Below, one piece after another: positions 14,006 to 31,723 of a DNA stretch of 32,392 nucleotides. A model generated the notes under the pieces. The model did no database searches, had not been told where the DNA came from, and was given only the letters and a program-made list of their open reading frames with translations. Numbering within the stretch: the first letter of the stretch is position 1; the number at the start of each line of letters is the position of its first letter. The stretch spans positions 1 to 32,392 of the forward strand of contig JAFLBE010000049.1 of the NCBI GenBank assembly GCA_017303995.1. Direction: 5' to 3'. A program made the position numbers and the translations under genes. This stretch comes from Bacteroidota bacterium (GTDB taxonomy: Bacteria > Bacteroidota > JABWAT01).

Positions 14006-14340
14006 AGGCCGGGGACAAGGGGGGTTACGGGTCACATATTACGGGTTACGGGGAATACGGAAAAACAATAAATCATGAATTACGGAGACGGGTCTGAGAC
14101 CCGTCTCTACCAAAATTCGAATTTCATTAAAAAAACTCCCCCCGCTCTGAGGACTCTGTGATAAACTCTGCGATCCTCTGTGGTTAAATGTTCCCCAGGA
14201 GACGCGATGAATCGTGTCTCTACCAAAAATTCGAATTTCATTAAAAAACTCCCTCCGCTTTGCGTTCCCTGCGACTTTGCGAGCAAATCTCCTTTTCCCT
14301 TTGTATTTTTATCCCATTCCATGAAGACCAGGAAACGACC
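14006..14340. repeat. Heptamer array and duplicated palindrome units
   Basis: No gene is present. Four seven-base units lie at 14022-14049 (GGGTTAC, GGGTCAC, ATATTAC, GGGTTAC). A perfect palindrome follows, GAGACGGGTC (14085-14094) and GACCCGTCTC (14098-14107), then a ~42-base tail (14108-14149). A second copy has arms GAGACGCGAT and ATCGTGTCTC (14199-14220) and the same tail (14221-14262) with a few changes. Between and after them are CTCTGTG/TTTGCG-type strings of a kind seen in many bacterial genomes. The final ~40 bases should hold the promoter of the oxidoreductase genes. Confidence 0.75.
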
Positions 14341-17121: not shown

Positions 17122-18171
17122 ATGAACTCACCCATCCTCGCCATCAGAAAATTGGGATTCCAATGGGAAACTCAGGATCCATTTTTATTTTGTGTTCATC
17201 ACCTAGATCATTATCCGGCAGGTAACGATGAATTTGGTCCGGCAGCATCTCTTGCCGGCCATAATATCGGACAGGATTTTTCCACTAAAGATGGCTGGCG
17301 CATGTATCACGGTGAAACCGTTCCTGGTTTCCCTGCGCATCCGCATCGTGGATTTGAAACGGTAACGATCGTTCTGAAGGGTTTTGTTGATCACTCAGAT
17401 TCTCATGGTTCTGAAGGTCGTTATGGCGATGGTGATGTTCAGTGGATGACAGCAGGTTCCGGTTTGCAGCATTCTGAAATGTTTCCGTTGCTGGATAAAA
17501 ACAATCCAAACCCCATGGAACTTTTCCAGATTTGGATCAATCTGCCCAAAGCAAAGAAGTTTGCTTCCCCATTCTATAAAATGCTCTGGTCAGAAGACAT
17601 CCCCACATTTTCACAAACGGATGAAAAAGGGGAAAAAACAGAAATCACCGTCATTGCCGGTAAAATAGAGGAAGTTGTTCCGCCGGCACCTGCACCTGAT
17701 TCCTGGGCGTTTCCATCCGAAAATGAAGTCGCCATCTGGATTATTAAAATGGAAGCCGGTGCAGTGTTTACACTTCCTCCTGCTTCAAGCGGAGTAAACC
17801 GTTCCCTTTATTTTTACAGGGGTTCTGCGGTTACCATAGCTGGTACACTCATTAAACCCATGCATTCTGTTGAGTTAAAGTCAGATGAACCTGTATTGAT
17901 TGGAAATGGTGATCAGGAAGGATATTTACTTTTGCTTCAGGGAAAACCGATTGCTGAACAGGTGGTTCAGCATGGTCCGTTCGTGATGAATTCGGTTGAA
18001 GAAATTCATCAGGCCTTTAATGATTACCGAAAAACCCAGTTTGGTGGCTGGCCTTTTAAACGATACGACAACGTTCATCCGAGGGAAAAAGGCCGGTTTG
18101 CATCGTATTCTGATGGTCGGAAAGAAGAAAAGCCAGCTACAAGTGATAAGTTAAAAAGTTATAAGTTATAA
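17122..18171 (+). CDS. Pirin family protein
   Basis: 349 residues in the bicupin fold of pirins. The N-terminal cupin carries the four metal ligands H73, H75 (HPHRGFET), H117 and E119 (QHSEM), as in human pirin and YhhW. Family members include quercetinases and redox-sensing regulators; the substrate here is unknown. The protein is about 50 residues longer than usual. I start at the ATG at 17122 (MNSPILAIRK), because an earlier in-frame ATG at 17014 would translate the inverted repeat copy. The last nine residues (SDKLKSYKL) and the TAA stop are encoded by a seven-base tandem array, so the native end was probably altered. It faces the pyrophosphatase gene tail to tail. Confidence 0.9.
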   Translation: MNSPILAIRKLGFQWETQDPFLFCVHHLDHYPAGNDEFGPAASLAGHNIGQDFSTKDGWRMYHGETVPGFPAHPHRGFETVTIVLKGFVDHSDSHGSEGRYGDGDVQWMTAGSGLQHSEMFPLLDKNNPNPMELFQIWINLPKAKKFASPFYKMLWSEDIPTFSQTDEKGEKTEITVIAGKIEEVVPPAPAPDSWAFPSENEVAIWIIKMEAGAVFTLPPASSGVNRSLYFYRGSAVTIAGTLIKPMHSVELKSDEPVLIGNGDQEGYLLLLQGKPIAEQVVQHGPFVMNSVEEIHQAFNDYRKTQFGGWPFKRYDNVHPREKGRFASYSDGRKEEKPATSDKLKSYKL

Positions 18172-18190
18172 GTTATAAGTTATAAGTGAT
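18141..18190 (+). repeat. Heptamer array spanning the pirin stop codon
   Basis: Four perfect AAGTTAT units (18156-18183) are flanked by variants AAGTGAT, AAGTTAA and AAGTGAT, with one single-base slip at 18155. The pirin stop codon (18169-18171) lies inside. As seven is not a multiple of three, the TAA in each unit appears in all three frames within three units. Confidence 0.9.
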
Positions 18191-18234
18191 AGGTGGAAGG
18201 TAAAAGTTGAATATTAATAAAAAGATTGCATTTG

Positions 18235-18288
18235 TTTGGTACAAAGCTGGGCACTTCGACTCCGCTCAGTGACCAGCATTGTACCAAA
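18235..18288. terminator. Long hairpin carrying the 26-base core repeat, between convergent genes
   Basis: The arm at 18235-18250 (TTTGGTACAAAGCTGG) pairs with 18273-18288 (CCAGCATTGTACCAAA) at 15 of 16 positions around a 22-base loop. The loop plus the innermost two stem pairs and adjacent bases form a 26-base core (GGGCACTTCGAC...CAGTGACC, 18249-18274) identical to a copy at 31079-31104. Placed midway between the ends of pirin and pyrophosphatase, it could stop transcription from both sides. Confidence 0.55.
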
Positions 18289-18294
18289 TTCTTC

Positions 18295-18322
18295 ACTTAC
18301 CACTTATAACTTGTAACTTATC
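18295..18322 (-). repeat. Heptamer array directly after the pyrophosphatase stop codon
   Basis: Four units in perfect phase on the plus strand: ACTTACC, ACTTATA, ACTTGTA, ACTTATC. Read in the sense of the minus-strand gene they are of GATAAGT/TATAAGT/GGTAAGT type and begin one base after the TAG stop (18326-18324). Nearly the same units follow the GAF gene at 28848-28868. Confidence 0.85.
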
Positions 18323-28973: not shown

Positions 28974-30356
28974 GTATTGTTTCTTCTTAAATAAGAATCC
29001 CACCAACATTCCACCCATCACCAAAACCCCGGGATAAAACGGACTCAACTGGAACAGTGACTGAAAGACTTCAGGGAAAAGCAATCCTGCAACCCACCAG
29101 CCTGAAGAAACCAGAAAAGTGACCAGCATCATCCCTGCCATAGGTAAATTTTTCACCCAATCCGGCTTGAAATAAACCATCATCAGGGGAACAAGTAAAG
29201 CCGGAAGCACAACCGAACCCAATGTGTACCAGATGTTCACAATCATTTCGGAATAAACGGCAATTCCAAAACTCAAAACAGCCACAATCAGGAGAGAAAT
29301 ACGGGTGACCTTGACCGATTCTGCATCAGGTGTTCCTTTCCATCTCATCCAGAAGTCTTTGCCCAAAGATTGAGCTGCCAGAAAACTAAATCCGTTCAAC
29401 GTGGAAAGCACTGTCGCCAGCATCCCGGTGAAAAATAATCCTTTTGCTACTGACGGTAAAATCTGATCTGCAAGTGCCGGATAAGAAAGGGAGGCCTTGG
29501 CAAGATCTGGCAGTGCTGCCCGGGCGTATAATCCGGTAAGCGTGGTGCAAATATCAAAAACAAGCCAGAACCCGATGCTGATCAAAATCCCCTTTCTTGC
29601 AATCTGCGGACTTTTTGCTGAATAACACCGTTGGTAAAAACCCGGATCAGCCAATGTCATGGAAGCGATAAAAAACCAAACTACAAGACCTGCACCGGTT
29701 CCGGCAGGAATCCATTCCAGGTGAGCAGGCGGTAAATTAAGTTGCAGGAATTCAAATCCGCCAAAAGTGAACCAGGCAACCGGGAGAATGATAAAAAAGC
29801 CGCCAAACATAAGTGCAAACTGAAGAAAATCGGTCACAATCAAGGTTTTATATCCGCCAATCCCCACATAAATAAGAGAAAAGAACAGTGCAATAATCAT
29901 TGAAATCCAAATTGGAACCGGCAGAATCAGCGAAATCAGAATTCCTGACATGAGAACGTAAGGTGCAGGTGAAACCATCAGAAAGGTAAACAAAGCGCTC
30001 AGAAGTCCCGCCCGGCGACCATAGGAGGCTTCAATCTGATCAGGAATAGAAATCAGGTTGGACTTCCGGATCCTTGGTGCCAACAAGATTGCAAAAATGA
30101 ACGCAAAAACGTAATAGGGGAAACCAAACGCCAGCCAGTTTGAAATCCCGTACGTGTAAGAATATTCGCCGACCCCCAGAATTCCGCCGTACCAGGTTGC
30201 TACCAAAGTCACCACAAATCCGGGTAAAGTAACTTTTCTTCCCGCCAGTAAAAAATCATCCTGAGATTGTTTTTTTACCGATGCACGAATTCCCAAAACT
30301 AAAAGCAGCAGAAAATAAATGGCAACTACAGAATAATCTGCAATGGAGAAATTCAC
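28947..30356 (-). CDS. Sodium:solute symporter family transporter (possible thiamine uptake)
   Basis: 469 residues with about 13 hydrophobic helices, typical of the SSS family. Family landmarks include YFLLLLVLGI with the following DDFLLAGR loop in the first loop region, GGYKTLIVTDFLQF and the LSTLNGFSFLAAQSLGKDF region with the sodium-site serine/threonine pattern. It should couple solute uptake to the sodium gradient at the inner membrane. The start is a GTG whose first four bases overlap the stop of the thiamine pyrophosphokinase gene (GTGA), with GGAAG seven bases upstream. That pairing suggests thiamine or a precursor as substrate (inference). The C-terminal MDPGSGSG and stop come from a dispersed hairpin repeat. 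Confidence 0.9.
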   Translation of the reverse strand: MNFSIADYSVVAIYFLLLLVLGIRASVKKQSQDDFLLAGRKVTLPGFVVTLVATWYGGILGVGEYSYTYGISNWLAFGFPYYVFAFIFAILLAPRIRKSNLISIPDQIEASYGRRAGLLSALFTFLMVSPAPYVLMSGILISLILPVPIWISMIIALFFSLIYVGIGGYKTLIVTDFLQFALMFGGFFIILPVAWFTFGGFEFLQLNLPPAHLEWIPAGTGAGLVVWFFIASMTLADPGFYQRCYSAKSPQIARKGILISIGFWLVFDICTTLTGLYARAALPDLAKASLSYPALADQILPSVAKGLFFTGMLATVLSTLNGFSFLAAQSLGKDFWMRWKGTPDAESVKVTRISLLIVAVLSFGIAVYSEMIVNIWYTLGSVVLPALLVPLMMVYFKPDWVKNLPMAGMMLVTFLVSSGWWVAGLLFPEVFQSLFQLSPFYPGVLVMGGMLVGFLFKKKQYMDPGSGSG

Positions 30357-30973
30357 TTCAGCACTTCCATTAGAATGAGATTCCCGGTTTGCCAGGAAAT
30401 TGAAACCTCGCCACCTTCTGCCTGATTAAGTGTGCCATTTCTGACACCAAGGGAAAGCGTATCGTCAGTCAACGGCCATTTTAGGCCGGTTGTGGTAATA
30501 CCGGTTGCAGTAGGAATTGGAATCAGTGAAAGGATGGTTCCGGCAGGAAAATCACATTTAAAATCAGCAGGAATCCGGTAAACATGGTGCAGATTGGATT
30601 TGAGAATGACAGGTAAATCACTTCCAACCCGGATGAGAGAAGACATATTTCCTATGGAGTGATCAATTCTGAGGCCTAAGGCACCCCAAATAATTATTTT
30701 CTCAGGGTTGTAAGTTCTGCAGAAACTGAGCACTTTTTCAAAGTCGGTCGTTTCCTGATCTTCGATTTTCACCTGTTCAACGGTTTCAAACCGGATGAGA
30801 ACTTCCGGTCTGACTGAATCAAAATCGCCGATAATCACATCGGGAACCAAACCAAATTCTGCAGCCGTATTTGCCCCGCCATCGGCACAAATAAATAAAT
30901 CAGAGGCAAATAAATCTGACCGGAACCGTTCACGATCAGGTTGTTCGCCATTGCAGATTACAATTATTTGCAT
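30353..30973 (-). CDS. Thiamine pyrophosphokinase
   Basis: 206 residues. Transfers pyrophosphate from ATP to thiamine to give thiamine diphosphate, the cofactor also needed by the 2-oxoacid oxidoreductase in this window. Signatures: ICADGGAN (28-35), IIGDFDS (47-53) and DQETTDFEKVL (72-82), followed by the C-terminal beta domain with SLIPIPTATGITTTGLKWPL. The ATG at 30973 fits the family start (MQIIVICNGE); a GTG at 30988 would add five residues drawn from a hairpin. Neither has a ribosome-binding site. Overlaps the symporter gene by four bases. I looked for a TPP riboswitch upstream and did not find the conserved CTGAGA-type core. Confidence 0.92.
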   Translation of the reverse strand: MQIIVICNGEQPDRERFRSDLFASDLFICADGGANTAAEFGLVPDVIIGDFDSVRPEVLIRFETVEQVKIEDQETTDFEKVLSFCRTYNPEKIIIWGALGLRIDHSIGNMSSLIRVGSDLPVILKSNLHHVYRIPADFKCDFPAGTILSLIPIPTATGITTTGLKWPLTDDTLSLGVRNGTLNQAEGGEVSISWQTGNLILMEVLK

Positions 30974-30977
30974 AAAT

Positions 30978-30998
30978 GAAAAAGCCACTTTCGTGGCA
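30978..30998 (-). terminator. Hairpin with GAAA loop and T-run just before the thiamine pyrophosphokinase start
   Basis: On the minus strand GCCAC-GAAA-GTGGC (30997-30984) is followed directly by TTTTT. It has the form of a short intrinsic terminator and ends only a few bases before the ATG. It might stop transcripts arriving from the bcp side or act as a leader attenuator. The five-base stem is short. Confidence 0.45.
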
Positions 30999-31004
30999 GA
31001 TTAA

Positions 31005-31219
31005 ATGATAGAATATTGGGTGACCTGTGATATGTGATATGTCCCTCGATAATATCCCGAACACGTCCCACAAATAAAGGGCACTTCGACTCCGCTCAGT
31101 GACCTTTATTTACAATTTCAGGTAAACCGTACCTGGTTTTTGTGACCTGTGATCCGTGATTTGTGACCGGTATTTCGTCCCTAGTCCCCAGTCACTTGTC
31201 CCTCGTCCCTAGTCCCTGT
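31005..31219. repeat. Heptamer arrays flanking a core-repeat hairpin, 3' of bcp
   Basis: Three structured parts fill this gap. An 11-unit heptamer array occupies 31142-31218, every unit beginning GT on the plus strand (GTGACCT, GTGATCC ... GTCCCTA, GTCCCTG), and ends one base from the bcp stop codon. The second copy of the 26-base core (31079-31104) has local arms AAATAAAGG (31072-31080) and CCTTTATTT (31103-31111). A second array of four units of the same type lies at 31020-31047. A small stem CAGGTA/TACCTG sits at 31119-31135. The thiamine pyrophosphokinase promoter must lie in or near this DNA. Confidence 0.9.
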
Positions 31220-31684
31220 TTACAGAGTTTTCAAATCTTCAAGAATTTCTTTGGCGTGATCTTCAGGCTTTACCTTCGGATAGGTTTTCAGAATTTTACC
31301 GGTTTCCCCAATGATAAAAGTTGATCTGAAAATTCCCATGTACTTCCGGCCATACATTGATTTTTCACCATAAGCACCAAACGCTGATGAAAGCTCATTG
31401 TTCACATCAGCCCAAAGCGGAAAATTCAGATTGTACTTGGCAATAAATTTTTCGTGTTTCTTTTCATCATCACCCGAAACGCCAATTACCTGAATTCCGG
31501 CTGCTTTCAAATCAGCCTGTTCATCACGGAAACTGCAGGCTTCCTTTGTACAACCCGGTGTGTCATCTTTCGGATAGAAATACAAAACGACTTTTTTCCC
31601 GGCAAGATTTTTCAGGGAAACAGGTTTTCCATCCTGATCTTTTACCATGATATCAAGGGGGGCAAGATCACCAACTTTAAGCAT
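31220..31684 (-). CDS. bcp: Thiol peroxidase, Bcp/PrxQ-type peroxiredoxin
   Basis: 154 residues. Reduces hydrogen peroxide and organic hydroperoxides using thioredoxin. The motif FYPKDDTPGCTKEAC holds peroxidatic C45 and the resolving C50 five residues later, the atypical 2-Cys arrangement of PrxQ. T42 and the FRSTFIIGETG strand complete the active site. The ATG at 31684 has GGAG six bases upstream; a TTG one codon earlier is less likely. It lies 39 bases downstream of the antitoxin-like gene, possibly on the same transcript. A long heptamer array begins one base after its stop codon. Confidence 0.95.
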   Translation of the reverse strand: MLKVGDLAPLDIMVKDQDGKPVSLKNLAGKKVVLYFYPKDDTPGCTKEACSFRDEQADLKAAGIQVIGVSGDDEKKHEKFIAKYNLNFPLWADVNNELSSAFGAYGEKSMYGRKYMGIFRSTFIIGETGKILKTYPKVKPEDHAKEILEDLKTL

Positions 31685-31723
31685 CAATTTCTCCGTAATT
31701 TATATAATGTTTTGGTAAAGCGG

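Follow-up and report, generated by a model that had tools for sequence, protein, structure and literature searches.

The bcp locus and its heptamer array

The analysed window, a continuous stretch of 32,392 nt, contains an intergenic region between the bcp gene and a thiamin pyrophosphokinase gene in which two arrays of 7-nt units lie on either side of a hairpin. The features of this region are the following:

30353 to 30988, minus strand: thiamin pyrophosphokinase gene, on the far side of the intergenic region from the bcp array
31020 to 31047, plus strand: the shorter of the two arrays (GTGACCT GTGATAT GTGATAT GTCCCTC), located upstream of the point where the thiamin pyrophosphokinase gene starts
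31072 to 31111, unstranded: imperfect inverted repeat AAATAAAGGGCACTTCGACTCCGCTCAGTGACCTTTATTT with a REP-like core, between the two arrays
31142 to 31176, plus strand: block 1 of the bcp array, four GTRAYNN units and the junction unit GTATTTC
31177 to 31218, plus strand: block 2 of the bcp array, six GTCMCNN units in the same phase as block 1
31220 to 31687, minus strand: bcp, an AhpC/TSA peroxiredoxin gene whose stop codon TAA adjoins the array

The bcp array (31142-31218) is made up of 11 heptamers that follow each other without a slip, namely GTGACCT, GTGATCC, GTGATTT, GTGACCG and GTATTTC, followed by GTCCCTA, GTCCCCA, GTCACTT, GTCCCTC, GTCCCTA and GTCCCTG, and it ends a single base short of the stop codon of bcp (31220-31222). 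GT heads 11/11 units. A preliminary description had reported this unbroken phase, and both the listing of units and a chance control bear it out: in 200 versions of the window generated with an order-2 Markov model, the longest period-7 run of any fixed dinucleotide (AA, CC, GG and TT excluded) was six, and because this length was never surpassed, the 11-unit GT run lies beyond chance. When periods 4-15 were compared, such long dinucleotide runs occurred in the window only at period 7 and its harmonic 14.

The shorter array across the hairpin has the same make-up as the bcp array. Three further elements of the window are relevant here:

14022 to 14052, minus strand: recR-side array of GGGTTAC and GGGTCAC units, which is the GTRAYCC pattern on the other strand
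18141 to 18211, plus strand: left arm of GTTATAA units, beginning at the end of a pirin-like gene
18294 to 18319, minus strand: right arm, the GTTATAA units inverted, before a pyrophosphatase gene, with a hairpin between the arms

Read in the sense of bcp, all units of the bcp array finish in AC, as do those of the recR array, which had been correctly described. It had also been suggested that what the two arrays have in common is a rule and not a unit; this is not supported, since the recR array (GGGTTACGGGTCACATATTACGGGTTAC) belongs to the same dialect, by which we mean the pattern of anchored and free positions within a unit, on the opposite strand. A dispersed core, CACTTCGACTCCGCTCAGTGACC, is present in the hairpins at 31072-31111 and 18200-18290, with stems that vary by locus. 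A search against Rfam gave no match to a known RNA family anywhere in the window.

Comparison with the sister genome

The bcp locus is kept in G002, a genome of the same genus whose Bcp protein is 97% identical. Its array comprises nine units (GTGACCC GTAATAT GTGACCC GTGACCA GTATTTC GTCCCCG GTCACTT GTCCCTT GTCACCG) and differs from the array studied here by a clean 14-base indel, corresponding to two units, and by 12 substitutions within the nine aligned units; a run of about 50 bases adjoining the array is identical in both genomes. None of the substitutions affects GT (0/18 mismatches against 12/45 in the other columns) and six of them lie at position 7. The array thus changes in two ways, through gain or loss of entire units and through substitutions, which spare GT. 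These differences support the earlier suggestion of a positional constraint beyond simple slippage of one unit; the comparison with a sister that had been recommended gave a divided answer, as the substitutions spare GT while the clean two-unit indel indicates that slippage is acting as well. When nine array pairs were pooled, mismatches amounted to 1/84 at GT and 44/209 elsewhere (binomial 5e-6), in a set that is biased by having been picked in GT register.

The sister version of the shorter array at 31020-31047 has seven units arranged in the block order of the bcp array. At 31072-31111 the hairpin has been partly exchanged for another insert, and the sister carries different hairpins at both this site and 18200-18290. 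Over 347 kb aligned with G002 (mean identity 85%), arrays often occupy the same site with a different dialect. In one inverted pair (C1:109792/109933), both arms have switched together, being GNNAGAA in the present genome and GTAGNNA in G002. At one site, eight homogeneous GTCGGAA units in one of the two genomes stand against 14 GTCAGAA units in the other. An array inside an ORF (C1:61307-61338) was found to be swapped for another in the sister with the length of the segment unchanged.

Heptamer arrays and dialects across the genome

A search of 432 kb of the genome, covering about a tenth of it, yielded 67 period-7 arrays against 1-12 for each of the other periods between 4 and 15 (harmonic 14 excepted). 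The dialects include GTNRYAA, GTRAYCC, GTCMCNN, GTACNNC, GTAGNNA, GNNAGAA, NTNAATG and GCNTAAG, among others, and GT heads only some of them. GT as a universal unit head or genome-wide rule is therefore rejected in view of arrays with other anchors (fixed cores GNNAGAA, NTNAATG, GCNTAAG and GAATTGC). At C45:9082-9195, a long perfect GTGGTAC array continues, with its phase unbroken, as GTTACAC and GTTATAA units and thereby marks a boundary between dialects.

The order of blocks in the bcp array (GTRAYNN, then GTATTTN, then GTCMCNN) was found at six places in this genome, bcp included, and at seven in the sister, where the orthologue of the recR array (L190) exhibits it; a reversed-pattern control gave 0 instances, and none was detected in G001 or G003. 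Because this order recurs at separate loci, the bcp array is a dispersed composite and not a local accident.

Arrays lie at a median distance of 1 nt from stop codons, genes having been called as the longest non-overlapping ORFs, a procedure that misplaces some start codons. On the strand that runs outward from the closest gene end, purines predominate in 74/85 cases (74:11), whether that end is 5' or 3', which counts against a purely mRNA-strand signal. The genes flanking the arrays (bcp, recR, pirin, pyrophosphatase) share no theme.

Heptamer arms around IVP genes

Heptamer arrays of this kind also surround genes for the 23S rRNA intervening sequence protein (IVP), a four-helix-bundle protein of family PF05635 (S23p). 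The elements are laid out as a purine-rich heptamer arm, the IVP gene and the same heptamers inverted, and each has a dialect of its own with a few anchored and several free positions. In the present genome, for example, a PF05635 gene is enclosed by two inverted arms at C40:78660/79096 (IVP gene at L158:18715-19092, with orthologous loci L246, L230 and L242). A survey of 80 PF05635 genes from Bacteroidota and a set of other phyla (Acidobacteriota, Nitrospirota, Planctomycetota, Chloroflexota, Verrucomicrobiota and Patescibacteria, as named in the records), in which arrays within 200 bp were counted, found period-7 arrays on both flanks of 38/80 genes, compared with 0-4/80 for periods 4-6 and 8-11. 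Outside the bacterial family of the present genome, both arms were found for 26/64 IVP genes, and in other phyla for 12/26, against 3/463 control genes (Fisher 2e-23 and 1e-14, respectively); for about half of the IVP genes, fewer than two arms could be detected at the threshold applied. The inverted match exceeded the direct match in 36/38 arm pairs. Similarity within pairs averaged 5.07, as opposed to 3.42 for arms exchanged among loci, where 1000 shuffles reached 3.75 at most. Inverted, dialect-matched arms are thus associated with IVP genes in several phyla, an association for which the open literature searched contained no earlier report.

Arms of one element change together. The IVP site at C40, which is retained in four genomes of the family, carries GNNAGAA, GTAGNNA, GTCAGGA and GAATTCA in G000, G002, G001 and G003, respectively, with concordant arms in each genome. 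The dialect is weakly tied to the IVP sequence (Mantel r 0.22, p 0.0005), and it has changed between L230 and L250 even though their IVP genes are 74% identical. In the C40 element, read by eye as one example, the fixed positions of the arms match and the free positions are not mirrored. Two observations from other genomes may be added. In a Verrucomicrobia record (L293), nine in-phase heptamers upstream of an IVP gene are all headed by GA with the remainder drifting, a behaviour like that of the GT arrays with a different anchor; and a Magasanikbacteria genome of about 1 Mb (G128) has 15 PF05635 matches, which is unusually dense.

Assignment of the bcp array

Block 1 of the bcp array shares its dialect (GTRAYCC/GGGTTAC) with the arms of an IVP gene elsewhere in the genome (C49, L240), and GTRAYCC arms are also present at the G002 orthologue (C9, L234). 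The GTCMCNN dialect of block 2 was not seen beside any IVP gene examined. Its profile fits the inverse of block 1 (3.93) slightly better than block 1 read directly (3.50), an ambiguous result under which block 2 can be taken either as an inverted arm or as a neighbouring dialect whose polarity is unchanged. If the array is treated as an inverted pair (GTGAC/GTCAC), the RNA fold is only mildly better than that of shuffled sequences (z -1.86 and -1.84).

The window contains neither an IVP gene nor a remnant of one, and contig C72 has no PF05635 match. At C67, the present genome has an IVP gene with its arms; G002 has no IVP gene there but retains, at that same stop codon, an array in a different dialect, and no target duplication was identified. 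This contrast indicates that gene-less arrays exist at sites able to hold an IVP gene. Together with the shared dialect, it leads to the reading of the bcp array as a solo arm array. For the IVP gene at C55, an empty counterpart was sought, but the region is missing from the three relatives. The excess of arrays over IVP genes, hundreds against only six, counts against this reading. On balance, the bcp array is best read as one of several hundred (by extrapolation) gene-less heptamer arm arrays of the genome. The probability that it is a gene-less array of the IVP arm type, with units that are perhaps read by a pentameric IVP ring, is put at about 0.5; it may descend from IVP arms.

The array might instead be an ordinary long simple repeat, produced by slippage that favours 7-nt units and decaying by point mutation, with GT inherited from the founder units. 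The two-unit indel and the GTCGGAA/GTCAGAA site agree with this account, and among the long simple repeats of most genomes those with 7-nt units are the most frequent, for which slippage was proposed (Mrazek 2007 as cited in PMC4679880). It is nevertheless unlikely, given that mismatches in the bcp array spare GT, that the block order is repeated at separate loci and absent from the reversed control, and that slippage would not yield inverted, dialect-matched arms at IVP genes across many phyla. The inverted arrangement is what would be expected if the paired arms were quasi-palindromes kept alike by replication template switching with no reader protein, and the joint change of dialect in both arms points in the same direction. 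However, a gene of about 400 bp separates the arms, the free positions at C40 are unmirrored while the fixed ones match, and the singling-out of IVP genes is left unexplained, so that this origin has little to recommend it.

The constant phase and invariant GT could also reflect a regulator, unrelated to IVP, that binds GT (or AC) at 7-bp intervals near bcp and other genes; such a role was proposed for TAACTGA repeats near start codons in Beggiatoaceae (PMC4679880). Against a regulator stand the lack of a common theme among the flanking genes, the location of arrays at gene ends of both kinds, 5' and 3', with one shared outward polarity, and the difference in dialect between sisters at a given site, which together make it quite improbable.

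Proposed mechanism and significance

The arrangement of arrays as mirror-image arms that bracket IVP genes suggests that the PF05635 protein reads nucleic acid, DNA or RNA, seven bases at a time. The Xanthomonas S23p protein was described as a toroidal homopentamer built from four-helix bundles (Lin 2006, cited by PMC4990558), and structure 2gsc contains five chains. An IVP ring may bind single-stranded RNA or DNA in such a way that each protomer holds one 7-nt unit. Under such binding, the phase and the anchor bases would be kept and the remaining bases would drift, as they do in the arrays. Two arms of the same dialect would represent two sites for one protein, and the joint drift of their anchors could result from co-evolution with the protein or from copying between arms. 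The C40 element, as a single example, favours recognition over copying because its fixed positions match and its free positions do not mirror each other. Solo arrays such as that at bcp might be non-autonomous copies or remnants served in trans. IVP binding, mobility and function at the arrays are all predictions of this model. A wider proposal is more tentative: IVP proteins may generally be ring readers of 7-nt repeats, each with a dialect of its own, the gene and its arms a widespread selfish or RNA-processing element of several phyla, rRNA intervening sequences a special case of it and solo arms of the bcp type its non-autonomous copies.

PF05635 is a common bacterial family for which we know of no function, and descriptions of heptamer repeats go back a long way with, to our knowledge, no agreed explanation of why the unit is seven. 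Should the protein and the repeats be parts of one system, the two questions merge into one that can be addressed at the bench, namely whether an IVP protein binds its flanking heptamers with one unit per subunit. The rRNA intervening sequences would then gain a wider family.

Comparison with known systems

Heptanucleotide repeats were reported as TAACTGA in Beggiatoaceae, Cyanobacteria and Bacteroidetes (PMC4679880) and as GGGAATC and GGGGAYT in Xanthomonas and Nostoc (PMC4692102). Judging by the accessible parts of these reports, they resemble the present arrays in being intergenic tandem 7-mers with many copies per genome, often of mixed types and with indels in 7-nt steps, and differ in being given as single fixed units with no link made to IVP genes. 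Like long simple repeats of this class, the bcp array consists of tandem 7-nt units beyond chance; its units vary at five of seven positions and are thus not near-identical. Xanthomonas, one of the genera with such repeats (PMC4692102), also has the solved IVP protein (2gsc), a possible link.

REP/RAYT-type elements and MITE-like palindromes are, like the arrays described here, short, dispersed, intergenic, gene-less and present in many copies; unlike these, the arms are tandem 7-mers of changing sequence. TRAP is an RNA-binding ring in which each subunit takes up one of a series of short RNA motifs set at even distances. The proposed IVP ring would follow a similar logic by analogy, with different spacing, fold and subunit number.

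The intervening sequences of 23S rRNA share with the elements described here a PF05635 gene between complementary termini. They lie within 23S rRNA helices and are excised by RNase III, whereas the present elements are located between protein genes, as is the bcp array with its position between bcp and the thiamin pyrophosphokinase gene and not inside 23S rRNA, and have arms that are dialect-matched heptamer arrays. In the intervening sequence of Coxiella burnetii, tandem GACAGAT/GACAGAA heptamers precede the S23p gene (PMC4990558). These heptamers are of the GNNAGAA type that was also found here, and they are the nearest published fact to the association of IVP genes with heptamer arms.
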